Below, piece after piece: positions 979-46,586 of a stretch of DNA of 64,000 bases. Made by a program: the position numbers and the translations under genes. Origin of the DNA: Bradyrhizobium sp. CCGB12 (GTDB lineage: Bacteria; Pseudomonadota; Alphaproteobacteria; Rhizobiales; Xanthobacteraceae). The DNA lies in contig NZ_JANADO010000001.1 of NCBI RefSeq assembly GCF_024199845.1, forward strand, positions 5,766,001 through 5,830,000. Direction: 5' to 3'. The notes under the pieces are model-generated. The model had not been told where the DNA came from, did no database searches, and worked only from the letters and a program-made list of their open reading frames with translations. Positions within the stretch are counted from its first letter, which is position 1; each line of letters starts with the position of its first letter.

Positions 979-2076
979 TTACCTCGCGCCCGCCTTCTGC
1001 GCATAATTCCACGATGTTTTCGCGAGCGGCACGGTGCGCCTGGCAACTTCCGTCGCCTTGGTGCTGGCGGCAGTGCCATCTCGGATGCGCGCCGCGATGC
1101 CTTGAGTCATGCCGACCAATCGAAAGAGATTATACGCAAAATACCAATTCAAGTCCGGCAGCTCGCTGCCCGTGTAGGCGCAATAGATTTGCGCGGCTTC
1201 GTCCATGCTCGGGATATTGAGCGCTTTCAGGTCGGCGTCCGCAAGGCCTGGCCTGATCCATTGCATCAACAGATAGGTAAAATCGGAGATGGGATCGCCG
1301 AGCGTCGACAATTCCCAGTCGAGTACTGCGGTCACGTGCGGCTGCTTTGCATGAAAGATAATGTTGTCGATCCGATAGTCGCCATGCACGATGGAGACAA
1401 GTTTCTGCTCGGGGATCGTGTTTGGCAGCCACTCAATCAGCTTTTGGACCTCCGGGATATATTGCGTCTCTGAGGCGCGGTACTGCTTGGTCCAGCGATC
1501 GATTTGGCGTACGAAATAATTGCCGGGTTTTCCGAAGTCGGCAAGCCCGATCCTATCGGGATCAAACATGTGCAGCCTCGCGAGAGTCTCGATCTTGCTG
1601 CGGAAAATCTTTGCCCGCATGTCGGCAGGCTGGCTTGGCAAAGTCGGATTCCAATAGATGCGTCCTTCCTCCATCGACATGATGTAGAAGGCCGCGCCAA
1701 TGACGGCATCGTCAGTGCAGAGCGCAAATGCATGTGCAACCGGGAAGCCCTGCTGGCCGAGGGCCGAGATGACGCGGAACTCACGATCGACCGCATGCGC
1801 CGACGGCAGCAACTTGCCGAACGGCTTTCTTCGCATCACGTAGGAGCGACCGGGACTGTCGAGTCTGTAGGTAGGATTGGATTGGCCTCCCTGAAACTGT
1901 AAGATAGTCAAGGGGCCGGTATAGCCATCGACATGCTTGCGCATCCAGCGATCGAGACGGTTCTCGTCGATTCGATGTCGACCTTCGACGGGTCTCGTGC
2001 CCGAGAACTCCTCGTCCTTCCTGAAGCCATCGGCCAAGGTGACACTCCTCGAAATTGTTGAAGCGTGCCGCTTCAT
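979..2076 (-). CDS. ACAD10/LvaA-like acyl-CoA phosphotransferase
   Basis: A 365-residue protein of the APH/choline-kinase fold, in the branch called phosphotransferase family protein that is related to the kinase domain of ACAD10 and to LvaA. Visible motifs are the catalytic loop HGDYRIDN (H231, D233, N238) and the metal-binding DWE (D253-E255). The N-terminal lobe has the GGQSNPTY glycine loop near residue 63. LvaA relatives phosphorylate 4-hydroxyacyl-CoA so that an acyl-CoA dehydrogenase partner can remove the phosphate. No such dehydrogenase gene is in this window, so the substrate is open. An ATG at 2076 was taken. A TTG near 2041 with a better GAGGAG site 7 nt before it would give a protein about 12 residues shorter. 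No sigma-54 site was found upstream, unlike several other genes of this module. Confidence 0.8.
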   Translation of the reverse strand: MKRHASTISRSVTLADGFRKDEEFSGTRPVEGRHRIDENRLDRWMRKHVDGYTGPLTILQFQGGQSNPTYRLDSPGRSYVMRRKPFGKLLPSAHAVDREFRVISALGQQGFPVAHAFALCTDDAVIGAAFYIMSMEEGRIYWNPTLPSQPADMRAKIFRSKIETLARLHMFDPDRIGLADFGKPGNYFVRQIDRWTKQYRASETQYIPEVQKLIEWLPNTIPEQKLVSIVHGDYRIDNIIFHAKQPHVTAVLDWELSTLGDPISDFTYLLMQWIRPGLADADLKALNIPSMDEAAQIYCAYTGSELPDLNWYFAYNLFRLVGMTQGIAARIRDGTAASTKATEVARRTVPLAKTSWNYAQKAGAR

Positions 2077-2897: not shown

Positions 2898-3770
2898 TCA
2901 GCTGGATAACGAACGCCGTTCGCGCACCGAGCCTTCCTGAGAAACCGACGCTACCAGCGTGCCGTCACGCCTGAAGATCAAGCCGCACGCAAGGCCGCGT
3001 CCGCCTTGTGCGCTCGGCGACTCTTTGGCGTAAAGTAACCACTCGTCGGCCCGAAAGGGACGGTGGAACCAAATTGCGTGGTCGAGGCTCGCCGAAATCA
3101 TGCGCCCGTCGAACAGAGTGCGGCCATAGCGCACCGTGATCGCATCGAGTAGCGCCAAATCTGAGGCATAGACCAGCGCGCACATGTGAATCGTCGGATC
3201 ATCGGGCAGCTTTGCTGCGGCCTTCATCCAGATATGAAAGCGGCCGTCATCGATTTTTTGACCGACATAACGGCCAATCTCGACAGGACGCAATTCAATC
3301 GGGCGATCGCGGTCATAGTAGCCGCGGATGAACTCCGGTATGTCGGCGAAGTTCGATCGTTTGAATATTTCTTCTGCAGCGAGCATTTCGGGCGGCAGAA
3401 CAGCGGGCATATTGTTTTGGTGATCGAAAGCGCCCTGTTCGCCTGCATGAAAGGACACCATGATGGAAGAGATGGGCTTACCGTGCTGGATTGCGGTCAC
3501 GCTCCGTGTCGAATAGCTTTTGCCATCACGCAGCCCTCGGACTTCGTAGATGATCGGAACCTGGGGGTCACCGGTCTGAATGAAATAGCCATGTAGCGAA
3601 TGCGGCAGCCTGTCTTTCACGGTGCGACATGCCGCGACCATCGCCTGCGCTATCACTTGCCCACCGAATACCCGTTGGAGGAGAGGATTCGGATTGTTGC
3701 CGCGAAACAGGTTCACCTCGATTGGCTCAAGGTCGAAGATGGAGAGCAGGTCGATCGAGGTTTTGGACAT
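2898..3770 (-). CDS. Acyl-CoA thioesterase II (TesB family), copy 1
   Basis: A 290-residue double-hotdog thioesterase that hydrolyses acyl-CoA to free acid and CoA. The family pattern is clear: an N-terminal hotdog with LFRGNNPNPLLQRVFGGQVI near residue 20-40, a C-terminal hotdog with the catalytic-Asp segment VYASDLALLDA, the SLDHAIWFH strand and the Gln of SAQGGRGL. The length fits TesB. The start at 3770 was chosen because the TesB N-terminus begins there and AAAGG lies 8 nt upstream. A longer open frame reaches 3941 but its extra residues are unlike the family. The gene stands alone behind its own sigma-54 promoter (4024-4039) with a leader of about 240 nt. It is closely similar to the neighbour at 4238-5086. 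Substrate chain length cannot be read from the sequence. Confidence 0.9.
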   Translation of the reverse strand: MSKTSIDLLSIFDLEPIEVNLFRGNNPNPLLQRVFGGQVIAQAMVAACRTVKDRLPHSLHGYFIQTGDPQVPIIYEVRGLRDGKSYSTRSVTAIQHGKPISSIMVSFHAGEQGAFDHQNNMPAVLPPEMLAAEEIFKRSNFADIPEFIRGYYDRDRPIELRPVEIGRYVGQKIDDGRFHIWMKAAAKLPDDPTIHMCALVYASDLALLDAITVRYGRTLFDGRMISASLDHAIWFHRPFRADEWLLYAKESPSAQGGRGLACGLIFRRDGTLVASVSQEGSVRERRSLSS

Positions 3771-4023: not shown

Positions 4024-4039
4024 AGCAATCACCGTGCCA
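4024..4039 (-). promoter_or_regulatory. Sigma-54 promoter of thioesterase copy 1
   Basis: Minus strand reads TGGCACGGTGATTGCT, a complete match to TGGCAYRN4TTGCW. Transcription would start near 4012 and run into the thioesterase gene at 3770. It is paired with the NifA-type site at 4098-4113. Confidence 0.85.
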
Positions 4040-4097
4040 CGGTAAGGTGATGCGAAATCGATGTCCTCACCCCGCCGGCAACGGTAGTTGCGTTGAA

Positions 4098-4113
4098 TGT
4101 CGGAGTGCCAACA
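4098..4113. promoter_or_regulatory. NifA-type upstream activator site
   Basis: TGT-CGGAGTGCCA-ACA, an exact TGT-N10-ACA. Its centre is about 67 bp upstream of the -24 element of the 4024-4039 promoter, about -91 from the predicted start, inside the usual NifA range. Confidence 0.75.
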
Positions 4114-4237
4114 TAGACTCAACCGGACAAAGGCCGAACGCGACAATGCACATGAGCGAGGGTTGGACGCCTCGCGGCTCGGAATCGACCGCCATGGGAT
4201 TCTCGACGCCATATCACGTTTGTATGGAAGTGACGGC

Positions 4238-5086
4238 TCAGCGCTGCTCACGCACTGAACCTTCTTGGGCGACAGACGCGACCAATGTGCCGCCAGGCTC
4301 GAAGATCAAGCCGCGTACGAGGCCGCGTCCGCCTTGTGCGCTCGGCGACTCTTTGGCGTAAAGCAGCCAGTCGTCTGCTCGAAACGGTCGGTGAAACCAC
4401 ATTGCGTGATCGAGGCTTGCAATCATCATACGTTTGTCGAACAATGGCCGATCATAGCGAGCCGTCACCGCATCGAGCAGCGGGTAATCGGAGGCATACG
4501 CCAACGCGCACATATGCTGCACTGGATCGTCGCGCAGCCTCGTCGCTGCCTTGATCCACACATGAACGCGACCATCTTCAGTTTTTTCACCGATATAACG
4601 GCCGCTCTCAACCAGGCACAACTCTATCGCGTAGTTCTGGCGGACGAAGTCAGTCGTTTCGCAAAATGTCGGCTGCTCAGGCGTTTGCACTGCCATGAGG
4701 GTATCCGGAAACGGCACGCAGGGCATCTTGTCCTGGTGGTCAAGAGCGCCGTCCTCGTCGGCATGGAAAGAGACCACGATGGAGCAGACTGCGGTGCCAT
4801 GCTGGATTGCGCTGACGCGGCGCGTCGAATAGCTCTTGCCGTCGCGCAGCCGTTCGACCTCGTAAATAATAGGCGCCTTTGGGTTGCCGGGCCGGATGAA
4901 GCAGCTGTGCAGCGAATTCGGCAGCCGTCCCTCCACCGTGCGGCATGCCGCAGCCATCGCCTGCCCAATCACCTGGCCCCCAAACACCCGCTGCGCGTTG
5001 GTGTTCGGACTGTTGCCACGAAACAAGTTCATTTCCATCGCTTCCACCTCCAAGATAGCGGGCAGGTTGATCAGGCTTTCGGACAT
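4238..5086 (-). CDS. Acyl-CoA thioesterase II (TesB family), copy 2
   Basis: A 282-residue TesB-type double-hotdog thioesterase, paralogous to the gene at 2898-3770. Long identical blocks are shared around QRVFGGQVI, LRDGKSYSTR, the FHRPFRAD segment and AKESPSAQGGRGL. The catalytic Asp (YASDYPLLDA) and Gln are kept. The start at 5086 aligns with copy 1; upstream codons to 5170 look non-coding. It has its own sigma-54 promoter at 5295-5310, so the two copies are separately controlled and are not one operon, although they point the same way with about 470 bp between them. Divergence in the middle of the protein, between the two hotdogs, suggests different acyl preference, which is inference. 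Confidence 0.9.
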   Translation of the reverse strand: MSESLINLPAILEVEAMEMNLFRGNSPNTNAQRVFGGQVIGQAMAAACRTVEGRLPNSLHSCFIRPGNPKAPIIYEVERLRDGKSYSTRRVSAIQHGTAVCSIVVSFHADEDGALDHQDKMPCVPFPDTLMAVQTPEQPTFCETTDFVRQNYAIELCLVESGRYIGEKTEDGRVHVWIKAATRLRDDPVQHMCALAYASDYPLLDAVTARYDRPLFDKRMMIASLDHAMWFHRPFRADDWLLYAKESPSAQGGRGLVRGLIFEPGGTLVASVAQEGSVREQR

Positions 5087-5294
5087 TGATGCGCATTCCC
5101 CTTCTTGGGCGTCATACATGGCATGCTGCCATAAACAGAACTTTCGAGGTTTCGGAGCGTTGTCTCGCACCGCATGCCGCCAGCGTAAATTCGCGGAACG
5201 GCACGCGGCGGTGCTGCTGTCTATTGATTTGGATCAATCGTGGCCCTCTCATTGTACCGCTAGGAATGATACCTTTCCCTTTCAACGTCACCGC

Positions 5295-5310
5295 AGCAAT
5301 CGGCATGCCA
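5295..5310 (-). promoter_or_regulatory. Sigma-54 promoter of thioesterase copy 2
   Basis: Minus strand reads TGGCATGCCGATTGCT, a full match to TGGCAYRN4TTGCW, about 210 bp upstream of the start at 5086. No exact TGT-N10-ACA was found in the 300 bp upstream, so either the activator site is degenerate or another enhancer-binding protein acts. Confidence 0.75.
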
Positions 5311-5738
5311 TGCATCCGCTGTGCACGCCAGTTAAGACACATCCATCTACTTCGAGCCGCGCCTGAAATACTTCGACCTTAGCGTCGTGCTCCGAACATA
5401 CAGATTTGAAGTCTGACAGAGCTGAGCATGACAACGATCGCGCGAAGGACAACGGTCGCCTCTCGTGCCGAACGCTTGCGAGGGGATGCCCGTCACAATC
5501 ATCGCGCCAGCGCGCTTGGTACTAGGTTCGGCAGATGGACTGAACTCTAAAGCTCCGTTCCCGCGCTGCCTTGGAGACGCAGAACCAGAAGTCGCTTGCG
5601 AGACGCTGTGGGCCTCTGTAACTCTCGCGAGAGTCAGCTGCAACGAACCGCCTTTCGGCTCCTCGGCGAGGTGAGCTACTGCCCATCGACGGCTATGACG
5701 AGCATTATCGCCTCCTCATCCTCGGCGCCCTAGGGTAC

Positions 5739-6600
5739 GCGCTAGGGCCGATCGACATTCATTGCATCCAGATCATGGCGGCTGCGAGATGGATGAAGCC
5801 GGTAAAGTTGGCGGTCCGCCTGTCGTAACGGGTGGCGAAGCGCCGGAAGTGCTTGAGTTGGTAGAAGCAGCGCTCGATGCGGTTGCGCTGTTTGTAGGCG
5901 TCGGGGTCATGCGGGATGATGATCCTGCGGGTGCGGTTTGACGGGATCACCGCCGTTGCGCCGATCTCGGCGATGATCGCGCGCAGGGCGTTGCTGTCAT
6001 AGGCTTTGTCGGCCAGCACGGCATCGCCGCTTTGCCCGTCAAGCAGCGTGGGCGCCTGGGTGATGTCGCCAACCCGTCCGGCCGTGACGATGAAGCGGAG
6101 CGGACGGCCGAGGGCATCGGCCAGCATGTGGATCTTGGTGGTCAGTCCGCCTCGGGAGCGCCCCAGCGCCTGATCTTTGGCCCCCCTTTTCCGCTCGTGG
6201 CCTGCTGGTGGGCGCGAACGATGGTGCTATCAATCATCAGATACTGGTTGTCGCGATCGGCGGTCAGCGCGGCGAACACGCGCTCCCAGACGCCGGCATG
6301 GCACCAGCGGCTGAAGCGCCGGTGCACGGTCTTCCACTTGCCGTACCGCTCCGGCAGATCACACCAGTGCGCGCCCGACCGTAACACCCATAAACACCCG
6401 TTCAAGAACAGGCGGTTATCCCGGGCTGACCGTCCGGGGTCGCCAGCTTTGCCTGGCAGCAATGGCGAAATCTTCGCCCATTGCGCCTCGTTCAACTCGT
6501 ATCGTTTCGCCGCCATCATCCGCTCCGCGTCGAATCACGGAACTCTATGAATCAGCGATCAATCCGCTTGGGAATCCTGAATGTCGATCGGTCCTAGCGC
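5739..6600 (-). mobile_element. IS5-type (IS427-like) insertion sequence
   Basis: An 862-bp element bounded by 23-bp terminal inverted repeats with one mismatch (5739-5761 and 6578-6600, core GCGCTAGG-CCGATCGACATTCA). It carries one transposase split by a programmed frameshift. The ends and catalytic residues look intact, so the element may be active. I could not define a target duplication with certainty. Confidence 0.88.
5759..6519 (-). CDS. IS5-family transposase (OrfA/OrfB frameshift)
   Basis: Two overlapping frames encode the transposase: OrfA 6142-6519 (125 residues, N-terminal DUF4096-like region and first DDE Asp in MIDSTIVRAH) and OrfB, whose frame opens upstream of 6127 and ends at 5759. 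The second Asp is in LADKAYDS and the Glu in RNRIERCFYQLKHFRRFATRYD. At 6181-6190 the minus strand has AAAAGGGGGG. A -1 slip there turns OrfA into a continuous protein reading GKGGAKDQALGRSRGG, which is how IS427-group elements express their transposase. It is therefore a functional arrangement and not a decay frameshift. Confidence 0.88.
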
Positions 6601-7006
6601 TGGTGCCAGCCGCGGGTTCGGATCCGCAACGGCTACGCAGCGCAGTCAGCGAGATCAGAAAGGTGCACGCTTCATACTACGCCGGTACGGCACTTCTCTT
6701 GGCCACGCTCACGCCATTAGCCCTGGTCTCAAGCAGGACATTTACACCACGCGCCTTATCTGACATGACTATGATAGCGTTCACATCTCCGTTTCCGCCG
6801 CAAAGCGCGACCTCCAAGCGTGCCCGGGATCGTTCAAGGCAGACCAAGATTTTACGCCTTCGGCGCCTTTTCGGGATTGTTTTGGGCGCCGCAACGCTGG
6901 CTGTGCCAAACAGCGCCTCGCCATAGCGGCAGAAGTCGTGCCCCACTGGGCTCCGAACCCGCATGGGTGCCGCGCCAATTCGCTTGACATCTTCAGCTAG
7001 GCCAAG
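6601..7006. other. Stretch without recognisable gene
   Basis: Between the insertion sequence and the MaoC gene. Only short frames without domains or starts. No terminator hairpin with T-run was seen after the MaoC gene. Confidence 0.35.
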
Positions 7007-7867
7007 TCAACCCAGCAATGTCTGGCCATTCTTGGCGACGGTAACTTGGCGTTCCCGAACATGAGCTTCGAACGAAATCGAGTTGCCGTCCTGCCAAAGA
7101 TTGACAGTAATGATCTCACCCGGAAACACGGGGGCAGAAAAGCGGACGCGATGACGATGAAAGGCAGAGGGATCGTAGTCAGCATAGGTCTGCAACACGG
7201 CTCTGCACGTCAGTCCATAGGTGCACATGCCATGGAGAACGGGCCTGGGAAAGCCCGCTCGGCGCGCAAATCCCGGATCGCTATGTAAGGCATTTCTATC
7301 ACCGGACAAACGATAGATCAGCGCTTGGTTGGGTTGGGTCGGGATATCTACTGATCGGTCCGGTGCTCGGCGAGGTATTTGATGCGGCTTGGGCATTCCC
7401 TCCGATGGTCCGTCAAAGCCCCCGTCGCCCCTCGCAAACGTCGACGAAACGATTGTGGCGATCTTGTCCTCCGTGCCGTCTTTAACGATGACTTCGTTCT
7501 GAATGATCGCCCCTTTCTCCCTTCCCTTGTCGTACACGCCGCGCACACGCGCATCCGCAGTAACCTCGGCTGCGATGGGAATCGGTTTGTGAAACGTGAT
7601 GTCGCGTTCGCCGTCAAGAACCATGACGCGGTTGAGGTCGATGACCCCGGGTCGTGCCCCCCATACGCAGACCGAAGCAAAAGTCGGAACAACCTTTAGC
7701 GGCTTGGATGTTGCAAATGCCTCGTTGACAAACTGCAGCTCCTCTTCGTTCAGAGGATCGGAGCCCATGCCGACCCCAAGCGCGTAAAGCATCACCTCCC
7801 GATCGCTCCACGAATAGGGCACGGCTTCGGTCTTGAGGTCGAGTATGGCCGGATAGTCGATCGGCAT
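7007..7867 (-). CDS. MaoC-type enoyl-CoA hydratase 2
   Basis: A 286-residue two-hotdog protein of the eukaryotic-type hydratase 2 / MFE-2 group. It should hydrate trans-2-enoyl-CoA to (R)-3-hydroxyacyl-CoA, or the reverse. The C-terminal hotdog carries the hydratase-2 motif with D190, N192, H195 and D197 (YRLSGDRNALHSDPGFA), followed by GFPRPVLHG. The N-terminal hotdog lacks this motif and is the usual substrate-binding half. ATG at 7867 is preceded by GAGGAG. The gene is monocistronic and lies about 290 bp downstream of a sigma-54 promoter with a well-placed NifA-type site, so it is probably made in microaerobic nodule conditions. Together with the thioesterases and hydroxyacyl kinase it suggests acyl-CoA remodelling. 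Confidence 0.9.
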   Translation of the reverse strand: MPIDYPAILDLKTEAVPYSWSDREVMLYALGVGMGSDPLNEEELQFVNEAFATSKPLKVVPTFASVCVWGARPGVIDLNRVMVLDGERDITFHKPIPIAAEVTADARVRGVYDKGREKGAIIQNEVIVKDGTEDKIATIVSSTFARGDGGFDGPSEGMPKPHQIPRRAPDRSVDIPTQPNQALIYRLSGDRNALHSDPGFARRAGFPRPVLHGMCTYGLTCRAVLQTYADYDPSAFHRHRVRFSAPVFPGEIITVNLWQDGNSISFEAHVRERQVTVAKNGQTLLG

Positions 7868-8154
7868 CAGCCGCTCCTCGTTCTCGTTACCATGGCGTCA
7901 GGCCCGCTTACAGAGCGGCAGTGGCGGTCCACTGCTCCATCAGCTCTCGTCCTCGTCAAGTCCGGTCTCCCGGCCAATTCTCGTATTGATGAACGCAACC
8001 AGCATTTTCAGGCGCGGCACCATTCCGCTCTCCGAAGCTGTTGCCAACGCCACGCGCTTCTATGCTCGCCTTTTGTCCAGCAACACACATGTGAGTACGA
8101 GCATCGCGCGTCTTCCTTGACTTGGCACCCTGCTCAGAGTTGTTGAACTTCACT

Positions 8155-8170
8155 AGCAACGGCCATGCCA
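8155..8170 (-). promoter_or_regulatory. Sigma-54 promoter of the MaoC gene
   Basis: Minus strand reads TGGCATGGCCGTTGCT, matching TGGCAYRN4TTGCW at every defined position. It faces the MaoC start at 7867 and has an activator site at 8254-8269. Confidence 0.85.
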
Positions 8171-8253
8171 GAACCGTCAGCGCGTTAAGCGTCTGATGCC
8201 ACATGGCCTTCCGACAACGCCCTCATGTTCCGCACCCGACGGGGGCTTGTGCC

Positions 8254-8269
8254 TGTCAGCAAATGGACA
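8254..8269. promoter_or_regulatory. NifA-type upstream activator site
   Basis: TGT-CAGCAAATGG-ACA, exact TGT-N10-ACA. The centre is about 92 bp upstream of the -24 element, about -116 from the predicted start. Confidence 0.78.
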
Positions 8270-8835
8270 CCGCTTGACGCCCAAAGGCACAGCCTAAAGG
8301 CCCATCGAACCCCTTGCACACTCCATACCCGGCTGCTCCCTTGGCGGAATTCCAATTCCATGCACCCAGACTGAGCTCAGCAGCCAACGTTCAAAGCTTG
8401 CCGATAAGGCCTAGTACGGCGCTATATGCCGCCATTCCTCCTTGGCGGCACCAAGCCGCCGACTCCTCGAATCGCGCTGTCCGCCGATCGCACCATGATC
8501 CATGATAGGTGTGAAAGCGTTTCCTGTTTGTCGTTTAGATAGGCGATTGGCATGGCCATGCAGCTCGACCCTGTTAGTCAAACGGGCAACTTGATCGCGC
8601 CCGGGATATAGTCATCCTTAGACGCGGCAAGCGGCGGCGAATGACCAGCCCGCCGACACGGCAAGTTGCGCCAACTCTGCGCAAATCAACTTCATCCGAC
8701 AAACATATCTTACAGTCAACCAAGGTCCTGAACCAGACGGGGCACGGAACCGGATGATGCTCACGAACGCTAACGACCAAGTCCATTCGCTCACGTGCGT
8801 TCTCATGAGGTCGAGACGGATCAGGTCGTGCCAAC

Positions 8836-10647
8836 TTAATTAGCGACCTTTTTTGCGGACCCACCGAGCGCATCGTGCGTAGCCTGCCGTTCGAATAGCC
8901 CCCGATAGATGCCGCCAGCTCGAGTCAGGGAGCCGTGGTTGCCCTGCTCTACGATCTCACCTCGATCGAACACCAGAATGCGCTCGAAGTTGCGTACCGT
9001 CGATAGCCGGTGCGCAATCACGATCGAAGTGCGTCCCTTCATCAACCGCTCCATCGCCTGTTGGATCAGCCCCTCCGATTCCGAATCGAGGCTTGAGGTG
9101 GCCTCGTCCAGAATCAACACCGGCGCATCCACTAGGAATGCACGCGCTAGCGCGACCCGCTGCCGCTCACCGCCCGACAGCTTTACACCGCGCTCGCCGA
9201 CCAGCGTGCCAGACCCCTTCGGCAGCCGTACGATGAAGTCATGCGCATTGGCGAGCCACGCTGCCTGCTCGATCGCTGCCACGCCTGCTTCTGGCCGCCC
9301 GTAGGCAATGTTCTCAGCCAGCGTGCGGTGGAACAGCATCGGTTCCTGCTGCACGACCGCGATCTGGCTGCGCAGCGATTGCTGTGTCGCCTTGGCAATA
9401 TCTTGGCCGTCGATCAAAATCCTGCCGCCAGAGAGATCATAGAGCCGCTGCACCAATTTGATAAACGTCGTCTTGCCCGATCCGGAACGGCCGACAAGTC
9501 CAACGCGTTCGCCGGCGCGGATGTCGATTGACAAGGCATCGTACAACGGCGCGCGGTGATCCCCATAATGAAAAGTCACGTCCTCAAACGTGATTCTCCC
9601 GCCGCGGATATCAATCGGTTTGGCGCCCGGTGCATCGATGATGCCCATCTGCTCTCGACTGATAGTAACAAGTTCCATCATGTCGTTCACAGAACGCTGC
9701 AGATTGTTGATGTAGATGCCGACCTCACGCAAATAGGCGTGGATGACGTAGTAGCTCGTCAGCATATAGGTCGCGTCGCCCGCCGAGGCACGCCCTGCTA
9801 TCCAGAGCAGGATCGCGCCGCCCATTATCAAACAGCGAAAACACAAAAGCATCACGTGCTGCACGATGAAAGTCGCGTTTCCGCGCTGCCACGTGCGCGA
9901 CATCCGTGCCTGCCATTGTTTGACAACACCATCGAATCGCGCATCCTCACGCGTCTCTGCGCCGAATGATTTCACCACGGCGTTGCAGGTGAGCGCATCT
10001 GCAAGCGTGCCGCCAACCTTGGTATCCCAGGCATTGGATGCTCGGGCCGTTGGCGCGATATAGCCGATCGTCATCACTATCGTGACCGCGACGTAGATGA
10101 CCGCGCCGACAGTGATCACGCCGCCGAGCCACGGCCAGTGCAGACTTAGCAAGATCATTGAGCCTACGAGCACCACGAGCGACGGCTATAATGCCATCAG
10201 AACGGTGGTATTGAGCAGGTCGAGCGCAGACATGCCGCGCGTGATCTGGCGAACGGTCGAGCCGGCAAAGGAATTGGTGTGCCAATCAGTCGAGGAGCGC
10301 TGCACCCGCACGAAGGCTTCGTATGTTACATCAGCGATCGTCTTCAGCGTGAATGGCACAATTGCCTTGAGGCCAACAAATCGTAGGATCAGCGAGATGA
10401 GACCCAGGACCACGATACCGCTGAATGCAACCAGCGCCGCATGCCGGGCGGCCGGATCGTACGGACCCGGCGTTAATGCGTCAACGAGATGGCCCGAATA
10501 AACCGGCATGAACAAGTCGGCGATCGGTGCACCTAAGAAGCCGACGAGAACGATCGCGAGGCGAACAGGCTGCTTCAGCCAGTGCTGGAAGACGAATGGT
10601 ATGACCTCACGGAGCGCGGCGGGTCGTTTGTCATCCTGAACATTCAT
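8836..10647 (-). pseudogene. ABC exporter (fused TMD-NBD) with in-frame amber codon
   Basis: One reading frame of about 603 codons encodes a type-I ABC exporter half-transporter: transmembrane domain, then an ATPase with Walker A GRSGSGKTTF, signature LSGGERQR, Walker B VLILDEATSSLDSE and the H-loop (VIAHRLST). The frame is broken by a TAG codon at 10186-10188, after about 153 residues inside the membrane domain; the frame continues unchanged after it. Either the gene is inactivated, the codon is read through, or the base is an error. The start at 10647 is preferred to the upstream codon at 10665. A sigma-54 promoter at 11264-11279 points this way, about 600 bp upstream. The substrate is unknown. 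In this family drugs, lipids and glycans are all possible. Confidence 0.8.
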
Positions 10648-11263
10648 GGCGCGATTAGGCGGCACTCACAGCGCGAGCCAACTCCATCTGAATTGGCGCA
10701 CGATGGCGCAAGGCACTACTAGGAGAGGCATTGAAAACCGGTTGTTGGATGTCCTGAAAGAGCTGGACGTCGGCTTTATCAACGCCGGCGATCAGCGGCA
10801 CGGCCTAGATTCCTTCAAGAGCAGCAGGCGCAGACAAGCGACCGGTGTTCCAGGCATGATCCGGTAGACCGTCGCCCATTTGGCCGACGAGGCGCGGCTG
10901 ACACATGTATCGGTCACAACCTGCAAGCGCGAGCTTTGGGGCCGTGTAAGAGAATTGCCCTGCCTTTGTTGATGGGTGCACGATGTCGCTCGCAAACAGT
11001 TTGCGTCACGTCTCGACAAGCCGCGCATTCCTTTCAGATAGGACGCTTGGTGCAGGCGCTGGCTAACTCCAACGATAACAGATCTACTCAGTCTAGCCAT
11101 TATCTTGTCCTTGCCCGGCACATGCAACGTGCAACCGAACTGCTTTGTCTGCATGTCGGCTGCAGCACCTGGCTGTGCGATTGATGGTTCGAATGTCATA
11201 ACGTCTCGAACAACTGCAACAGCGCACTAAGGTCGACTTGCGCTACTATTGCTGTCTTTGAGT

Positions 11264-11279
11264 AGCAACAGCCGTGCCA
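11264..11279 (-). promoter_or_regulatory. Sigma-54 promoter facing the ABC exporter
   Basis: Minus strand reads TGGCACGGCTGTTGCT, a full consensus match. The activator site at 11346-11361 is centred about 75 bp upstream of its -24 element. The first clear gene downstream is the exporter at 10647. Confidence 0.78.
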
Positions 11280-11345
11280 ACGATCTGCATACGTGACAAG
11301 CCGTTGTTTGGGGATATAAAAACCCGCATGCCACCGAACAGCTGC

Positions 11346-11361
11346 TGTCTAGAGCGCGACA
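11346..11361. promoter_or_regulatory. NifA-type upstream activator site shared by two promoters
   Basis: TGT-CTAGAGCGCG-ACA, exact TGT-N10-ACA. It lies about -99 from the minus-strand start and about -241 from the plus-strand start. The motif is symmetric, so it could serve both. Confidence 0.7.
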
Positions 11362-11568
11362 GTCGTCATACTTGCCGTTGGAAACCAAACAACATCTGCG
11401 GCCATTTGCGCCCGAATGAATGCCCTACGGCCTCCTCGATCACGGCTGAGCTGACCCCAGCAGACGCCACCAACGTCAGAATTCGTGCTGGCTAATGGGA
11501 GTCACAACTTAAGGTTCGGCACGTAAAAGTTCTTTCTTTCTCAGAGCTGCTCATGCGGTTCATGTGGG

Positions 11569-11584
11569 TGGCACGGCGATTGCT
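11569..11584 (+). promoter_or_regulatory. Sigma-54 promoter of the FAD oxidase gene
   Basis: TGGCACGGCGATTGCT, a full match to TGGCAYRN4TTGCW. Predicted start near 11596, about 200 nt before the ATG at 11794. Confidence 0.82.
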
Positions 11585-11793: not shown

Positions 11794-13188
11794 ATGGCCG
11801 ACAATTTCATCGACAGACTGTGCAAGTCGCTCCGCAAGGGTTCGGTGCTGACTGGCACGGACATTGACTCTCGATATTACCACGATTTGGCCGGCAAACC
11901 GGTCGCGAAGCCGCGAGCGGTCGTCCGTCCAAGGACGACGGAGGATGTCTCCGTCTTGCTCCGGCTCTGTCACAGCGAAAAAGTGCCATTAACGACCCAG
12001 GGCGGCATGACCGGATTGGTGCGCGGCGCTCTGCCGAATTCCAGTGAAATTGTGCTTTCGATGGAACTTATGAATGCGGTCGAGGAGGTGGACGCCTCCT
12101 CAACCGCAGCTGTGGTGCAGGCCGGCGCGCCGCTGCAAAAGGTACAGGAAAGGGTCGGGCAGGAAGGCTACATGTTCCCACTCGATCTCGGTGCGCGCGG
12201 TAGCTGTACGATCGGGGGCAACATCTCGACAAATGCCGGCGGGAATCGCGTGATTCGGTATGGCATGATGCGCGACTTGGTCCTTGGCCTGGAAGTCGTT
12301 GCCGCCGATGGCACGGTGCTACAGGGCTTGCGCAAATACATCAAAAACAATACCGGCATTGACCTTAAACAGCTTTTCATCGGCAGCGAAGGGACTCTCG
12401 GCGTGGTGACGCGAGCCGCCTTGCGCATCTTCCCCGCGCCTACTGAGCGCCAAGTTGCGCTTTGTGCCCTACCCTCCTTTGCACGAGTTATCTCGATCTT
12501 GGGGATGGCGCGGAAACATCTGGGCGGAGAACTGACGGCATTTGAAGTGATGTGGAACGAGTACTACCGACTTGCGCTTGAGCGCGTGAACGGCCTGGTC
12601 CGGCCGCTGCCGGTCCATTATCCTTTTTATGTCTTGATCGAGGCCTCCGGTGACGATGCCCATCGCATCCATGCCGATCTCGAAAAGCTTCTTGATATGG
12701 CAATGCGCGCGAACATGATTGCTGACGCGACGCTCTCGATGTCAAATGCATCTGCAGCAGCGATATGGCGCATTCGCGATTGTAGTTTGGAACTTGCCCG
12801 GACGTTTCCTTATGCTGCGCGTATTGCCCTTGACGTCAGCATAGCCCTCAACCGAATGGATCAGTATGTGAGGACAATTGCCGAGCGTATGAGGGAGATC
12901 GATTCCTGCGCATTTGCGATCGTGTTCGGTCACGCCGGCGATGGTAATCTGCATATCGAGCTACATCATGAGCACACGCCCGACAGGCGCCAGGAATTGG
13001 AGGCGCTTGCTTATCAGATCACCAGTGAATTCGGCGGATCGATCTCAGCGGAACACGGCATCGGCATAGTTAAGCGGCCGTACCTGAATTTGAGTAGGAC
13101 GTCGGAGGAAATCGAAACGATGCGTGCGCTCAAGCGAGCGCTCGATCCGAACAATATCCTGAACCCGGGACGCATTTTCACGATGTGA
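11794..13188 (+). CDS. FAD-linked oxidase (D-2-hydroxyacid dehydrogenase-like)
   Basis: A 464-residue member of the GlcD / D-lactate dehydrogenase / D-2-hydroxyglutarate dehydrogenase family. The N-terminal PCMH-type FAD domain shows VRPRTTEDVSVLLRLC, TQGGMTGL and GGNISTNAGGNRVIRYGM, then IGSEGTLGVVTRAALRI. The C-terminal substrate domain ends with FGHAGDGNLHIELHH (metal-binding histidines), SAEHGIGIVKRPYL and LDPNNILNPGRIF. It should oxidise a D-2-hydroxyacid to the 2-oxoacid and pass electrons to a quinone or ETF. ATG at 11794 is preferred because GAGTGAGGG lies just before it; a GTG at 11785 would add three residues. It is monocistronic behind a sigma-54 promoter, so it fits the nodule-expressed module. 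Confidence 0.9.
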   Translation: MADNFIDRLCKSLRKGSVLTGTDIDSRYYHDLAGKPVAKPRAVVRPRTTEDVSVLLRLCHSEKVPLTTQGGMTGLVRGALPNSSEIVLSMELMNAVEEVDASSTAAVVQAGAPLQKVQERVGQEGYMFPLDLGARGSCTIGGNISTNAGGNRVIRYGMMRDLVLGLEVVAADGTVLQGLRKYIKNNTGIDLKQLFIGSEGTLGVVTRAALRIFPAPTERQVALCALPSFARVISILGMARKHLGGELTAFEVMWNEYYRLALERVNGLVRPLPVHYPFYVLIEASGDDAHRIHADLEKLLDMAMRANMIADATLSMSNASAAAIWRIRDCSLELARTFPYAARIALDVSIALNRMDQYVRTIAERMREIDSCAFAIVFGHAGDGNLHIELHHEHTPDRRQELEALAYQITSEFGGSISAEHGIGIVKRPYLNLSRTSEEIETMRALKRALDPNNILNPGRIFTM

Positions 13189-14758: not shown

Positions 14759-16123
14759 ATGACGAGTTCGAGCAGGCGGCACGTGATCATCATCGGCGGC
14801 GGCGCCAGTGGTGTGCTGCTTACCTACCAATTGCTGCATCGGCCGACGAGCGATCTACGCGTCACCCTGATCGAGCAGCGTCCCGATATCGGCCGGGGCA
14901 TCGCATATCATACGGGTAACCCTGATCACTTACTCAACGTACGCGCCTCAAATATGAGCGCGCTGCCCGACAAACCAGACCATTTCTGGCGCTGGCTGAG
15001 CTCGCGTGATGCAGGCGCGCCGCTGTGTCTTGATCCCTACTGTTTCGTGCCACGACGCATCTACGGCGATTACATCGCGAGTTTGCTCGAGCAACAGACA
15101 GCCAACCCTATGGACGCACGGCGTCTATCGATTCTGCAAGGTACTTGCGTCGACATCAACGAGGGGCCCGCCTGCGTGTCGGTTACGCTGGATGATGGCA
15201 GATCGCTAGTGGCCGATACAGTCGTTCTTGCAACGGGACATGATACGAAGGCTAACCGCCCGGCTCATGTAGATCCCTGGGCTCCGCGGTCGTCCGCTCT
15301 TATCGACACTGATGCAACCGTATTGATTCAGGGCACGGGCCTTACCATGGTCGACTATGTCCTGTCGTTGCTGCGTGACGGCCACCTCGGACCGATCGTG
15401 GCGATGTCACGGCGCGGCCTGCTCGCAAAACCCCACCGTCACGTCGATGCTTTGCAAATTGATGAGACGGATGTTCCTTTCGGCGCCGGTATCAACAACC
15501 TGCTACGCTGGCTTCGCGACCTAATTGACCGGAATGCGGCCCAGGGTGGCGATTGGCGCAGTGTCATCGATGGCCTTCGGCCCTATACCCAGCGGCTGTG
15601 GCATGAGCTCCCCAGGGCATCAAAACACCGCTTTCTCGAGCACACGCGCGCCTGGTGGGACGTGCATCGGCACCGGATGGCTCCCGAAGTCGAAGCACGC
15701 ATCACCCAGGCGCTTGACAGCGGACAACTCACCCTGATGGCTGCAAAGGTGGCCAGCATCGAGCCCAATAGCACCGGAGCCAGAGTCACGTACCGCCGCC
15801 GGGGCCATGCCAATCCCCTCGAGATGCAAGTCAACACCTTGGTCGATTGCACCGGCATCGTCAAAGATCCGCGCGCTACGCTCAATCCAGCAGTGCGTAG
15901 TTTGTTCGATCGTGGTCTAGCCCGGGTCGACCCACTCTGCATCGGCATTGAGACGGATCGCAATTGTGCGATCATCGAGCGCGACGGCACGCCTTCGTGC
16001 CGCCTGTTTGCGGTCGGTCCGATCACACGTGCGACTTTTTGGGAAATCGTGGCGATACCCGATATTCGCAACCAATGTGCTGCACTTGCGGCCCTCCTCG
16101 TCAATACGGCAAGGGAGTATTGA
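14759..16123 (+). CDS. FAD/NAD(P)-binding protein (NAD_binding_9 type)
   Basis: A 454-residue flavoprotein. The N-terminus has the dinucleotide-binding loop HVIIIGGGASGVLLTYQLL, followed by LIEQRPDIGRGIAYHTGNPDHLLNVRASNMSAL, which is the signature of the FAD-NAD(P)-binding family found next to siderophore and thioester genes. A second glycine-rich segment (VLIQGTGLTMVDYVLSLL, near residue 187) binds the nicotinamide nucleotide, and VDCTGIV occurs toward the C-terminus. No partner gene is adjacent and no specific substrate can be given. The gene is alone on the plus strand in a long gene-poor stretch. It appears intact. Confidence 0.8.
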   Translation: MTSSSRRHVIIIGGGASGVLLTYQLLHRPTSDLRVTLIEQRPDIGRGIAYHTGNPDHLLNVRASNMSALPDKPDHFWRWLSSRDAGAPLCLDPYCFVPRRIYGDYIASLLEQQTANPMDARRLSILQGTCVDINEGPACVSVTLDDGRSLVADTVVLATGHDTKANRPAHVDPWAPRSSALIDTDATVLIQGTGLTMVDYVLSLLRDGHLGPIVAMSRRGLLAKPHRHVDALQIDETDVPFGAGINNLLRWLRDLIDRNAAQGGDWRSVIDGLRPYTQRLWHELPRASKHRFLEHTRAWWDVHRHRMAPEVEARITQALDSGQLTLMAAKVASIEPNSTGARVTYRRRGHANPLEMQVNTLVDCTGIVKDPRATLNPAVRSLFDRGLARVDPLCIGIETDRNCAIIERDGTPSCRLFAVGPITRATFWEIVAIPDIRNQCAALAALLVNTAREY

Positions 16124-17986: not shown

Positions 17987-18908
17987 GTGTTTGACTTGCG
18001 CGCGCGGCGGGACCGCCCTTCTGGTGGGCCAGCGTCGCGGCCCCGGGGCGCGACGGCCGATTGTCGGTCCAAGCGCTCCCCATCATGCCTCAGGCAAACA
18101 GGGCCAGTGCAACAGCAGTGCGGCGCAGCGCAGTCCTAGCGAAGTGCACCGAGTCTCTCCCGTCCCGGCCACACTTAGCGCGCATGAGGCGTGTCTCCCA
18201 AAAGGTGCAACGCGCTCAGCTGACAGCCAGGAACACCAAACCTATCAAGTCTGGTAGTACCCATCTCGCAGCTATCGGCAGCACGCCAGTCAGGAAGCCA
18301 TGCTTGCGGACGCCAACCAGTTTTCCGACAAGAAAATGGATGAATTAGGGGCGCTTGGCGCGCGCGCGGCATTGGAAAACACAAATCTCGCCGCATAAAT
18401 GCGCGTTGCGTACTCTCCTCGCCTGTTGGGCGCTTGGTTCGGGGGTAAACCTGGAGCGAGCACCGGCGCGCCCGGCAAGCGGACAAACTCAACACTACGT
18501 GTCCTCATGAAGGTAATGCATTTTGGATCCTTGCGCTAAATGCGAGGCGGGTCGCGAAGGCGCGATCCAAACGGGCGACGCATTCCTGAGTGCGCTTTCT
18601 GCTACCCCAACTTGATGCGCGCTGGGGAGGCAGATTGGAAACCTGCCTGGATCGCTCCCCGCGGGATGATCTTCAACGTGAGATGCGCGAGGAGTTCGGT
18701 CGCCGCTACGGTGGTCTGACCGGCACCAATCGCTGTCTCCTAGACGATTGACGTTCCAATCGCAATGAGCACAAATCGCTCCGATCCAAAAGCTCCCAGC
18801 AATGCCCAAACTCAGGCAACCCGGCCTTCCGCCTTGATCCCGGCCTATATCGTTCGCGCGGCCTCAAATGCGAAGGCCAATCCGACATAAACCTAGATAC
18901 TCGGCAAT
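17987..18908. other. Stretch without intact gene
   Basis: Short interrupted frames only, upstream of the dead carboxypeptidase. Nothing could be named. Confidence 0.35.
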
Positions 18909-18940
18909 AAAAAAGGGGCCGCTCGGATGACAAGCGGCCC
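18909..18940 (-). terminator. Rho-independent terminator
   Basis: GGGCCGCT stem (arms 18933-18940 and 18916-18923 on the plus coordinates) with a 9-nt loop, followed on the minus strand by CTTTTTTATT. It ends the predicted small RNA and would also stop any transcript reading through from the polysaccharide operon. Confidence 0.85.
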
Positions 18941-18994
18941 AAGTCTAGGGAGGAAACGCCCAAGGAGGGCGGCGGCAGCGCGAGGCGCTACCGC
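18909..18994 (-). ncRNA. Predicted three-hairpin small RNA with anti-SD loops
   Basis: Read on the minus strand, this 86-nt stretch folds into three successive hairpins. The first is 18972-18994 (10-bp stem with one G-U pair, CUC loop), the second 18957-18971 (CGCCC/GGGCG stem with a UCCUU loop). A single-stranded UUUCCUCCCU segment follows. The third is a terminator with 8-bp GGGCCGCT/AGCGGCCC stem and T6 tail. Upstream are a -10-like TATTGT (19001-19006) and a -35-like CTTGTG (19024-19029) separated by 17 bp, placing the start near 18994. Pyrimidine-rich CCUCC segments exposed in loops are typical of alphaproteobacterial trans-acting small RNAs that pair with ribosome binding sites. Family membership is not proven. 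Confidence 0.7.
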
Positions 18995-19451: not shown

Positions 19452-20585
19452 CTATTTCACGCCTATAGGCTGCAGGGCTGCCAGAAACCCCAGCCGTTCG
19501 GCCAACGCAGCGTTCGTCGACTGGCTGAAATTTCGGCGGAAGTGGTCCGGGTCGCGATAGAGAAACTCACCATTGAACCAGACACGGCATCGCCCATCCG
19601 CGCACAAGGCGTTTCCCGGATCGAGGACGATGACATTGGGCCTCCCGGCCGACGCCTCGCGGACGACGTCCTGCGCAGGCTGCTGTACCTCGGTGAGATA
19701 GCGCCAGATGAGCGCTTCCAAATTCGCTGGGCAGGGACGTCGCAAGAGCGCTTGACCCGCCATGGCGCATGCTGTGGGATTTCCGACGGGCACCTTGGGA
19801 ATGTCTACGAATAAGATCACCTTTTTGCTCGGTCCAATCTCATCGAGCAGGTCGCGAAGCGAGTCTCTCAGCAGCCGGAGCCCTATGGCTTCAGAGCGAA
19901 CGTTCGAGTTGCCTCGATAGAGCATCGTTGGCAGGTCCGACCAGCGGGCGGAAAGAATGACGGTCCCGATCTCCGGCCGATTCCTCAGAAGCTCCAGCAC
20001 CGACGCGCGTTGCCGGCCGCATTGACTGCTGTAAGCGGGATTGTCCGGCCAATATCGCTCGACTTTGCCGTTTTCGACGATTCCAGGGCATGGGTTGACG
20101 AGCCCAATGGCAGTGTTGTCGGCCAGTCCTGTCCAGTTGAGTATCGGCAGGAGATGCTCGGCGTTGCTGTCTCCCCAAACGAGTGCGCGATCGCGAGCCG
20201 TCGTCCAGGGTGCACCGAGAGCACAAAGATGCGAACTGCGCGCAGGCCCGGCAAACGTGGCCACTTCAATCGGCGCAATCTCCGGACACGGCCACTTCCA
20301 CATCCCGTCCAGACTCCAGCCGACAATCAGCGTCACGGAAACTGTCGACAACAGTGCGGGCAGGATGCGACGAATCCGCCGCTCGTAAAACCACGCTAGG
20401 GAGAACTGCTGCGTTTTCATAGACGTGATCAAAATGCCGGTGATCAGGTATCCGGAAATGACAAAAAAGACGTCAACCCCGACAAAGCCGCCCGAGACCG
20501 CGGGAACCTCGTAGTGGAAGAGAAATACGAGCAGCACGGAGACGGCTCGCAAGCCGTCAATGTCGGCTCGGTAATTCGAAACCAT
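19452..20585 (-). CDS. Acyltransferase-3/SGNH protein with large internal deletion
   Basis: A 377-residue protein whose N-terminus is that of OafA-type membrane acyltransferases (YRADIDGLRAVSVLLVFLFH, FVGVDVFFVISGYLITGI, YERRIRRILPALL). At about residue 95-110 it passes directly into the extracytoplasmic SGNH esterase/transferase domain (VWGDSNAEHLLP, then LYRDPDHF for the catalytic Asp-His). Full-length AT3-SGNH proteins are about 600-650 residues, with 10-11 membrane helices before the SGNH part; here roughly 250 residues including most helices are missing while the frame is kept. Acyl transfer across the membrane should be lost. It may be an in-frame deletion relic, or a working SGNH domain on a short anchor. 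It closes the polysaccharide operon, and such proteins O-acetylate surface glycans. The start at 20585 matches the family N-terminus. Confidence 0.75.
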   Translation of the reverse strand: MVSNYRADIDGLRAVSVLLVFLFHYEVPAVSGGFVGVDVFFVISGYLITGILITSMKTQQFSLAWFYERRIRRILPALLSTVSVTLIVGWSLDGMWKWPCPEIAPIEVATFAGPARSSHLCALGAPWTTARDRALVWGDSNAEHLLPILNWTGLADNTAIGLVNPCPGIVENGKVERYWPDNPAYSSQCGRQRASVLELLRNRPEIGTVILSARWSDLPTMLYRGNSNVRSEAIGLRLLRDSLRDLLDEIGPSKKVILFVDIPKVPVGNPTACAMAGQALLRRPCPANLEALIWRYLTEVQQPAQDVVREASAGRPNVIVLDPGNALCADGRCRVWFNGEFLYRDPDHFRRNFSQSTNAALAERLGFLAALQPIGVK

Positions 20586-20751
20586 TGGGATTGCCCCCGA
20601 ATTTACGTCGCAGATCGCACGGCATGCGTGCACGCCAGTTTAGACCTCACGCGTCAAGCACCCGCGCATTCGCGCGATTTGCTTTGAGCCAAATCGCCCG
20701 CAAATTTGCCCGATCGGCTTGACCAAACTTTCATCGCCCCAAGTCCACCAT

Positions 20752-24141: not shown

Positions 24142-24174
24142 CTGACTGTCATCCGCCTAACCGTGATGCAATTC

Positions 24175-27125: not shown

Positions 27126-27936
27126 CGGCAAACGCTTTCTTCGTACGCATGAAGCCCCAGTAGCCAATCTGCGCCACCGCAGCGGTCCCCGCGTAAAGTA
27201 GCAGAAGCGGAAGGAACGAGGGCGATTGATGATCAAAAATGGCCGACCTTGTCATCTCGATGATTTGCGTCAGCGGGTTCAGCGCGATGACAGCGCGGAA
27301 CGCTGGCGGCACTGCAGAAAGCGGGTAGAAAATCGGAGATAGGAACGTGAGCAGCGAGACAAGTACCCCAACTAGCTGGCGCAGGTCACGAAGAAACACT
27401 CCCAAGGCGGCGAGAGCCCACCCCAGCCCGGCCGTCAGCAAAATAAGTGGAAGCAGAATAATCGGCATCCAGAAGATTGCGGCTGACGGCAGCCCAACAA
27501 TGATCACGTGGCCAAGTAGGAAAACTCCAAACGACACGATGGCCGCAAACAACGCCACCGTGATCGCGATCGGAACCAGGGTCTCCAGCGGAAACACCAC
27601 CTTCTTTATGTAAGCCGGATTTTCCAATACCAAGCTAGGTGCACGATTGAACAACTCGGCGGCGAACTGAAAGATGATGAGGCCGATGAAAACACGAAGG
27701 ACGAAATCGGAATAGCGCCCGATCGCCCCCGGCCAACTCATCGTGAAGATCTGACTGAAGACGAACGAGTAGATCAGGAGCATCAGGAGCGGCACAACGA
27801 CGTAGTGACCAAGCCCGAGATAGGTGCCTACGATGCGCGATCGAATTTCCCGATCAGCAAGCAACTTGATAGTCGCACGCGAATAATGATCGAAGAGAAA
27901 ATCGTAGAACATCGAAACACACTTTCGAACGGTCAT
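27115..27936 (-). CDS. wzm: Polysaccharide ABC exporter permease
   Basis: A 273-residue ABC-2 type permease with six predicted membrane segments and the typical N-terminus FLFDHYSRATIKLLADREIRSR and middle segment LGLGHYVVVPLLMLLIYSFVF. It forms the membrane channel for an undecaprenyl-linked glycan with the Wzt ATPase encoded just after it; the genes overlap by 11 nt. ATG or GTG codons at 27936 and 27912 are both possible starts. The overlap with the preceding glycosyltransferase (stop at 27933) favours 27936. Confidence 0.9.
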   Translation of the reverse strand: MTVRKCVSMFYDFLFDHYSRATIKLLADREIRSRIVGTYLGLGHYVVVPLLMLLIYSFVFSQIFTMSWPGAIGRYSDFVLRVFIGLIIFQFAAELFNRAPSLVLENPAYIKKVVFPLETLVPIAITVALFAAIVSFGVFLLGHVIIVGLPSAAIFWMPIILLPLILLTAGLGWALAALGVFLRDLRQLVGVLVSLLTFLSPIFYPLSAVPPAFRAVIALNPLTQIIEMTRSAIFDHQSPSFLPLLLLYAGTAAVAQIGYWGFMRTKKAFADVV

Positions 27937-30463: not shown

Positions 30464-30555
30464 TGGCGCCTCCTGCGACGGCCAAGGCCACGATGCGCTG
30501 TCCCCTGACTACATCGATGCAGGTTGCCGGATCGCATTTTCGATCGTGGCGACAT

Positions 30556-32613: not shown

Positions 32614-32633
32614 ATCGACACTTCCCTACAGCG

Positions 32634-45509: not shown

Positions 45510-46586
45510 TCTCGATGACGAGCGCGCTCCCAAGGCTCGTTGCCCTGCATTTCGGGTTTGCCGCTCAGAGCGACACCTGGGAGCTTGCTCCTGCGACAAA
45601 GATGTCAGCAAGCATCAGCACGTAATTGCCTGACCGCCACTCTGAGAAGCGCCATGACGAACGACGCGCACAAGGCGCCTAACCAAGGTCGTACTATACG
45701 GATTTGATTTCCCACGACATCGCTTCTCCTGCCTTTAATCAGGGTGCCGACAGCCGAGCGAAAAAGGATCGCAAGGTGAGCTGGCCCCCAAATTTCACGC
45801 GGCCGCGATTCCTCGTAACCGGGGCATTGACGCGGTTCACCTAAGCAACGTCTGTGCCAGCCTATGTATGCTCAATAGTCGCCTGTCTATGCGTCGAGAA
45901 ACGGCGCTGTGCAAAAGCCGCCTCGGTTTTGTACCCGACAGTTTCGCACCTCTGGCGCAAAGTCGACAACAATCTGGCAATGCTCCAATCGGCGCGTCCT
46001 CCTTGTTCCCTGTATCTTCCAGGGCAGATGGATGCCCCCTCTCCCTTTCGTATCGAGCAAGACGCCTTGGGCTGCACGCAAGCGTATGCGCAGCCGCTTA
46101 TCTACGCAGGCCTCAGAGGTCGGCGCCAAGTTGTCCGGGGGATCTACGCGTCCCTCATCGCCGGGTGCCGTTCCAGGTTCTAGCGAAGATGAGCGAGTGC
46201 CTCGTTTTGCGCCTGCTGGGCAAGCGGCCTGTCTCAGTCTTGCACGGGGCGCCCAGCTTCTCATCGTCTGCGCCGCGGCGGTCAAGAGCGAGATCCATCC
46301 TCATCACGAGGAAGTCCTCTGCCGATCCGGCAACTACTCCTCAAATCGAGCCTGAACAACGGTGAGTTGCTTGGGAGATGCAGCCTACGCGCCTTCGCCC
46401 ATCGCCATTGAATCGGCCGGCCGGTCGCGCAGCTTCGCGACAACGGACTGTTAGTCTAGGGTGCAGACCGAAGAGTTTGAACAAGTGATGAACGATCCGT
46501 TCGCCACGGCTGTCGAGCCGGCGAGAGCGCCCCACGCACTTCGTTCATGACAGGGCATTGGAAATGAGCCCATCTATGCGGACGTC
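45510..46586. other. Regulatory and gene-poor stretch
   Basis: Holds the sigma-54 promoter of the pentapeptide-repeat gene (45844-45859). The remainder, about 45900-46580, has overlapping frames on both strands with no domain or credible start. Confidence 0.45.
45844..45859 (-). promoter_or_regulatory. Sigma-54 promoter of the pentapeptide-repeat gene
   Basis: Minus strand reads TGGCACAGACGTTGCT, a full match to TGGCAYRN4TTGCW. The predicted leader to 45509 is about 320 nt. No exact TGT-N10-ACA was found in the 240 bp upstream. Confidence 0.75.

Follow-up and report, generated by a model that had tools for sequence, protein, structure and literature searches.

Putative NifA- and sigma-54-controlled acyl-CoA genes on a symbiosis island of Bradyrhizobium sp. 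CCGB12

Most discussions of NifA concern its role in activating nitrogenase, and NifA regulons with non-nif metabolic members have already been described (PMC10454721; PMC3538637). Here we analyze a stretch of 64 kb (the window; positions 5766001-5830000 of the main contig) from the 9.43-Mb genome of Bradyrhizobium sp. CCGB12, in which genes for acyl-coenzyme A (CoA) enzymes, among them relatives of pimC, pimD, tesB and maoC, stand behind predicted -24/-12 promoters. We propose, with a probability of roughly 0.6, that these genes form a NifA/sigma-54 sub-regulon on the symbiosis island, a reading that derives from sequence comparison. Among described systems, the cluster shares its promoter type and island location with the genes that NifA and sigma-54 control in Bradyrhizobium diazoefficiens USDA110 (nif, fix, nrgA, nrgBC and others). 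The nifA-dependent genes of USDA110 have been tabulated (137 genes at a 16-fold cut, many of them unknown or hypothetical; PMC4926349, Table 3), and that table names no pimC/pimD, tesB or maoC, though many of its genes carry no functional name. The closest USDA110 member is nrgC (bll2063), a phenolhydroxylase homolog in PMC4926349 and an AidB-related acyl-CoA dehydrogenase in PMC8632152. In Mesorhizobium loti R7A the NifA-RpoN promoters are also scattered over the island and combine a -24/-12 element with an upstream activator sequence (UAS) given as TGT-N10-AGA; a term search of that paper returned no thioesterase, acyl-CoA or MaoC (PMC3538637). In Clostridia and Bacilli, beta-oxidation genes are reported by a computational survey to be under sigma-54 control (PMC12316311). 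Our literature search found no report of NifA-controlled pimCD, tesB or maoC, the main USDA110 regulon gene lists and most subscription journals lying outside its coverage. The cluster seems to comprise new members of the known NifA regulon, forming a module so far undescribed.

With respect to their enzymes, the genes resemble two other systems. The pimFABCDE operon of Rhodopseudomonas palustris serves dicarboxylate degradation; the island PimC and PimD exceed the corresponding NCBIfam equivalog cut-offs (765.4 bits against 623.85 for TIGR03204, and 723.6 against 652.7 for TIGR03203), and the core genome of CCGB12 also holds an open pimF-A-B-C-D-like operon (F, A and B judged by eye). Unlike the R. 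palustris operon, the island copy consists of pimCD only, has a sigma-54 promoter and is accompanied by maoC and tesB instead of pimF, pimA and pimB. Peroxisomal chain-shortening of dicarboxylates employs an MFE-2 hydratase together with an ACOT8-type thioesterase, of which we take TesB to be the bacterial relative. The cluster MaoC belongs to the MFE-2 hydratase-2 type; the likeness is one of individual parts only, and an acyl-CoA dehydrogenase replaces the peroxisomal oxidase.

The strict -24/-12 pattern, TGGCAYRN4TTGCW, matches the window six times against 0.07 matches expected, and none of 100 shuffles reached six; five of the matches fall in the cluster, at the positions already given in an earlier note on this DNA (Table 1). 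A further strict site outside the window, 1.65 kb beyond its left end (window position -1669), precedes island pimC and pimD. The cluster reaches leftward to these genes, beyond the span of the earlier note, and has six strict sites in 13.3 kb (-1669 to 11584), five of which fall within the window. The whole genome holds 33 strict matches (2 with the reversed pattern), 19 of them at 5.443-5.965 Mb, a stretch of about 0.52 Mb surrounding the nif genes, versus 14 in the remaining ~8.9 Mb; hits in unrelated control stretches did not match the density of the window. Taken together, shuffles, reversed controls and genome-wide density rule out chance clustering of the motif. Since nifH-, nifD-, nifV-, nifB- and fixA-like genes (named by eye from translations; 5.50-5.96 Mb) and the NifA gene (5498545-5500212) lie within the same stretch of the genome, we take the region, with a G+C mostly of 0.55-0.60, to be a symbiosis island. 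One NifA and one RpoN score above the model cut-off in CCGB12.

A NifA-type UAS (TGT-N10-ACA) was found in exact form 85-145 nucleotides (nt) upstream at 8 of the 19 island sites and at none of the 11 examined among the 14 non-island sites. Across 554 kb of the island, sites with at most two mismatches to TGGCACGN4TTGCW and an exact UAS at ~70-160 nt number 14, versus 0 when the sequence is reversed. If no UAS is required, the two-mismatch class gives 56 versus 41; hence, weak -24/-12 sites alone mean little. The usual pattern is one or two exact or near-exact UAS about 90-130 nt upstream of the start. In the cluster, three of the six promoters (tesB1, maoC and ABC) have an exact UAS; the distances of 91, 116 and 99 nt reported for them earlier deviate from those in Table 1 only through the placement of the start. 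The UAS of tesB2, at 106.5 nt, and that of pimC are each one mismatch off. Motif statistics, conservation, the near-absence of such sites from core-type paralogs and the presence of both nifA and rpoN make regulation by NifA and sigma-54, with one promoter per gene as the earlier note had suggested, a highly probable prediction, and expression in the nodule may be inferred from this type of control.

Conservation was assessed across 265 Bradyrhizobium genomes, relatives being judged on fetched stretches of their contigs. An island pimC ortholog (E <= 1e-235) is present in five of them, namely CCGB12, G144, G079, G034 and G080, and all five preserve the order pimC-...-tesB2-...-ABC-GlcD (GlcD denoting the GlcD-type oxidase, linked to flavin adenine dinucleotide, FAD) as well as the -24/-12 sites of these four genes, although the final base of the G079 GlcD site does not fit the strict pattern. 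The site is likewise kept in the three genomes having tesB1 and in the three with a full-length maoC. When the leaders were scored against 339 non-overlapping 16-bp windows, no window was as conserved as the promoter block of tesB1, maoC or GlcD, and only five and eight windows equalled those of tesB2 and ABC, respectively; in the UAS windows, 13/16 (tesB1), 14/16 (maoC) and 9/16 (ABC) positions are invariant. Ahead of tesB1 an exact UAS recurs at 99.5 nt in G079 and 103.5 nt in G144. G144 and G079 keep the UAS-like site of tesB2, while G034 and G080 have no UAS there at up to one mismatch, and GlcD, which has no UAS nearby in CCGB12, is preceded by an exact one at 117.5 nt in G057 and 108.5 nt in G066.

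Loci outside the cluster serve as negative controls. Among 30 tesB loci, a part of all tesB matches, the three tesB1 orthologs carry the site 265-269 nt upstream, and 26 of the 27 others read have none; the sole other tesB with a site (L116, in G192) has as neighbors a fragment of pimD and a gene judged by eye to encode an enoyl-CoA hydratase, and this locus is a relict of a similar cluster. Of 42 GlcD matches 30 were compared: all seven orthologs at least 82% identical have the site, which is missing from 22 of the 23 other loci read and lies 582 nt away in the remaining one. In G079, a further pair of tesB and maoC (69% and 80%) lacks a -24/-12 site, with one exact UAS lying between its two genes. 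The core genes of CCGB12 itself are 81% (pimC) and 76% (pimD) identical to the island genes, and core tesB is 74% identical to tesB1; island pimC, pimD and tesB are diverged copies of the core genes. Neither core pimC nor core tesB shows a -24/-12 site in the 700 nt read upstream, which rules out general sigma-54 control of the core paralogs.

Table 1. Genes, predicted promoters and upstream sites in the window (window positions).
Feature	Position	Strand	Remarks
APH-fold phosphotransferase	982..2076	-	Pfam PF01636, 174.8 bits; 822 nt behind tesB1; 88% ortholog in G079
tesB1, acyl-CoA thioesterase II family	2901..3770	-	TIGR00189, 287 bits (cut-off 292.85); Pfam 4HBT_3/Acyl_CoA_thio; omega 0.17-0.24
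-24/-12 promoter of tesB1	4024..4039	-	predicted start ~4013, 243-nt leader; 16/16 positions invariant in 3/3 genomes, 0/339 windows as conserved
UAS of tesB1	4098..4113	.	exact; 92.5 nt upstream of predicted start
tesB2, acyl-CoA thioesterase II family	4241..5086	-	tandem paralog of tesB1 (65%); TIGR00189, 264.2 bits, under cut-off
-24/-12 promoter of tesB2	5295..5310	-	predicted start ~5284, 198-nt leader; site in 5/5 genomes with cluster
Insertion sequence, two open reading frames (ORFs)	5759..6519	-	Pfam DDE_Tnp_1 for ORF 5762-6127, other ORF by eye; between tesB2 promoter and maoC
maoC, (R)-specific enoyl-CoA hydratase 2/MFE-2 type	7010..7867	-	PF01575, 97.8 bits; PF22622; PDB 3khp, 1s9c
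-24/-12 promoter of maoC	8155..8170	-	predicted start ~8144, 277-nt leader; invariant in 3/3 genomes, 0/339 windows as conserved
UAS of maoC	8254..8269	.	exact; 117.5 nt upstream of predicted start; one-mismatch partner at 89.5
MsbA-like ABC exporter gene	8839..10665	-	in-frame TAG at 10186-10188 (TGG in G079, G144); broken
-24/-12 promoter facing ABC gene	11264..11279	-	predicted start ~11253, 606-nt leader; site in 5/5 genomes
UAS of ABC side	11346..11361	.	exact; 100.5 nt upstream of ABC-side start, 241.5 nt upstream of GlcD-type start
-24/-12 promoter of FAD oxidase	11569..11584	+	predicted start ~11595, 199-nt leader; site ahead of 7/7 orthologs >=82% identical
FAD-linked oxidase, GlcD/D-2-hydroxyacid dehydrogenase group	11794..13185	+	PF02913, PF01565; PDB 3pm9, 6lpn, LctD 7qh2
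Isolated strict -24/-12 match	45844..45859	-	ahead of pentapeptide-repeat gene 44010-45611; no exact UAS; outside acyl-CoA set

The two TesB enzymes, the MaoC hydratase and the FAD oxidase named in the earlier note were all recognized by family profiles. TesB1, TesB2 and a third island relative, TesB3, contain the Pfam thioesterase domains; when TesB1 is aligned with 4qfw, the Asp and Gln of E. coli TesB match and the Thr is a Ser. MaoC scores above the gathering score of PF01575, and its alignment with 3khp displays what we take to be the hydratase-2 motif. The FAD oxidase falls below the cut-off of the GlcD model (TIGR00387; 292.1 bits against 567.9) and fits only broader FAD-oxidase families, its closest structures being a putative oxidoreductase of unstated role (3pm9), then D-2-hydroxyglutarate and lactate dehydrogenases. 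At the place of the predicted ATP-binding cassette (ABC) exporter there is indeed an MsbA-like gene, but its ORF is interrupted by the TAG codon and its ATG is separated from the predicted start by the long leader; the ORF does not reach the MsbA cut-off of 602 (TIGR02203; C-terminal ORF alone, 347.3 bits), and the exporter is probably no longer functional in CCGB12. The pimC-pimD, tesB1, tesB2, maoC and GlcD-type units consist of genes from common acyl-CoA or 2-hydroxyacid families, and each has its own -24/-12 promoter, with leaders of ~200-430 nt.

If the cluster acts as proposed, NifA would bind the UAS in the low-oxygen nodule and activate the sigma-54 polymerase; PimCD would then dehydrogenate a medium-chain dicarboxylyl-CoA, MaoC would hydrate the resulting enoyl-CoA, and the TesB enzymes would release free acids, chain-shortened or 3-hydroxy, by hydrolyzing CoA esters. 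For activation and thiolysis the core pimFABCD operon, which lies at another place in the genome, would be needed, because no PimB relative was found on the island and the best island match to PimA is only 23%. The FAD oxidase would oxidize a 2-hydroxy acid. Medium-chain dicarboxylyl-CoA is our best guess of the substrate, since PimCD-like pairs in beta-proteobacteria show strong fitness effects on C8-C12 dicarboxylic acids (PMC12543098). We regard this chemistry, substrate and product alike, as tentative. Were it to hold, nitrogen-fixing bacteroids would also run a defined organic-acid pathway under the nitrogen-fixation switch, and the analysis predicts exact transcription starts together with a testable gene set. 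A bolder and rather unlikely idea is that a nodule-only, peroxisome-like module has arisen on some Bradyrhizobium symbiosis islands through duplication of core acyl-CoA genes, each copy coming under a NifA/sigma-54 promoter; this module would shorten medium-chain dicarboxylyl-CoA, and the free dicarboxylic or hydroxy acids released would serve as a signal or exchange metabolite for the plant.

The acyl-CoA pathway suggested earlier has become more specific through the island copies of pimeloyl-CoA dehydrogenase, but a single complete pathway was not borne out, given broken or missing members, no island PimB and no close PimA. Possibly, though with a clearly smaller probability than the sub-regulon, the promoters are real but the genes, acquired separately by the island and retained or lost independently of one another, do not make up one pathway, each enhancing an acyl-CoA reaction of its own. 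Such a history would accommodate the patchy presence and gene decay across relatives, and the stretches fetched from G057 (8.6 kb) and G066 (20 kb), where GlcD and its promoter occur without other cluster genes. It would also fit the satellite locus at 5.662-5.666 Mb (G000 5662445-5665399; L207 6445-7311 and 8548-9399), which encodes an enoyl-CoA hydratase and TesB3. The hydratase gene has three exact UAS and, among six genomes examined, a NifA-type promoter in CCGB12 only; tesB3 has a one-mismatch promoter with no exact UAS and one-mismatch UAS at 115.5 and 138.5 nt. With a site at 1 of the 12 loci of the enoyl-CoA hydratase type read, that of CCGB12, NifA control of this gene in relatives was rejected. 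Independent accretion is harder to reconcile with the gene order kept in five genomes and with G192, where a promoter-bearing tesB, the enoyl-CoA hydratase and the pimD fragment lie side by side.

Several further observations weigh against a NifA/sigma-54 sub-regulon of acyl-CoA genes. In CCGB12, tesB2, pimC and GlcD have no exact UAS near their starts, and the pimC promoter block is unremarkable (128/339 windows as conserved), with the G034 and G080 sites not superposed in the alignment. The module is restricted, since so few genomes carry island pimC. The TIGR00189 TesB equivalog cut-off of 292.85 bits is missed by all three TesB proteins, tesB3 scoring 283.4 bits (others in Table 1). A one-mismatch -24/-12 site without UAS, adjoining the gene for another activator, lies 2.8 kb upstream of the island ligase giving the best PimA match; the island pimF relative is fragmented (5703988-5707212) and has no NifA-type promoter, and no relative of the PimB thiolase was found on the island. 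Moreover, ABC is broken not only in CCGB12 but also in G144 (frameshift), the APH phosphotransferase is frame-broken in G144, the enolase-like gene described below is broken in CCGB12, tesB1 and the phosphotransferase are absent from the fetched G034 and G080 stretches, and maoC is partial in G034 and absent from the fetched G080 stretch. Around the ligase, as a separate observation, hydrolase, transporter-like and ligase-like ORFs (by eye) occupy 5851129-5855880 on the minus strand, the activator gene standing at 5856478.

Such decay could suggest that the cluster is a remnant whose promoters persist by chance and whose genes no longer matter, the more so as the ABC and enolase-like genes of CCGB12 are broken and an insertion sequence has entered. 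We consider this highly improbable. For pimC, pimD, tesB1, tesB2, maoC, GlcD, APH and the C-terminal part of ABC, omega was 0.10-0.26 in the pairs compared, and these genes are under purifying selection; in addition, the promoter blocks of five of the six leaders exceed most of the flanking sequence in conservation. The least probable alternative, that the sigma-54 promoters answer another enhancer-binding protein (e.g., of the AcoR or DctD type), could draw on nine other AAA+ activator regions of CCGB12 that score against the NifA model (two on the island, at 5856478 and 5895581) and on the promoters lacking an exact UAS, but faces three promoters with exact UAS at 92-118 nt (two of them also with one-mismatch partners), an architecture common to fixA-/nif-like island genes (named by eye) and never seen on the reversed sequence, and the lack of exact UAS at the 11 non-island sites examined.

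Between pimC and the phosphotransferase gene (window about -1058 to -137; L031 18942-19863) lies an enolase-superfamily gene (MR/MLE, sugar-acid-dehydratase-like), an open 377-aa frame in four relatives and in pieces in CCGB12; the MR_MLE domains were confirmed in the G144 copy. All four relatives have an exact UAS upstream of it, yet a sigma-54 site was found neither by pattern nor by eye in the four sequences. No strict site separates the phosphotransferase gene from tesB1, and the former is perhaps read from the tesB1 promoter. The insertion sequence has no match at the corresponding place in the G144 and G079 clusters.

Other candidate members were rejected: no counterpart of the FAD-NAD(P) protein at 14759-16120 occurs in the stretches fetched from the relatives, and the aminotransferase, aldehyde dehydrogenase and Lrp genes of the left flank have no -24/-12 site upstream. 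The same holds for NifA control of pimF copies (no site at the eight loci read of 20, and none before the island fragment) and for a cluster in plasmid records, where the best pimC and MaoC matches are 64.7% and 48.3%. An RNA element in the leaders was also rejected, the only Rfam match at gathering score in the window being an mmgR/suhB small RNA (RF00519, 71.6 bits; 18901-18977, minus strand) outside the region.

Two similar TauD-like dioxygenase genes, at 5461212 (by eye) and 5645348 (by Pfam), each stand behind a strict island -24/-12 site. As an idea only, an acyl-CoA dehydrogenase may feed FixAB. Within 20755-35060 of the window (minus strand) a 1129-aa protein with glycosyltransferase, radical SAM and SPASM matches is encoded, adjoined by an SGNH/acyltransferase (19455-20633), and another glycosyltransferase lies at 33822-35060; this stretch looks like a glycan gene cluster.

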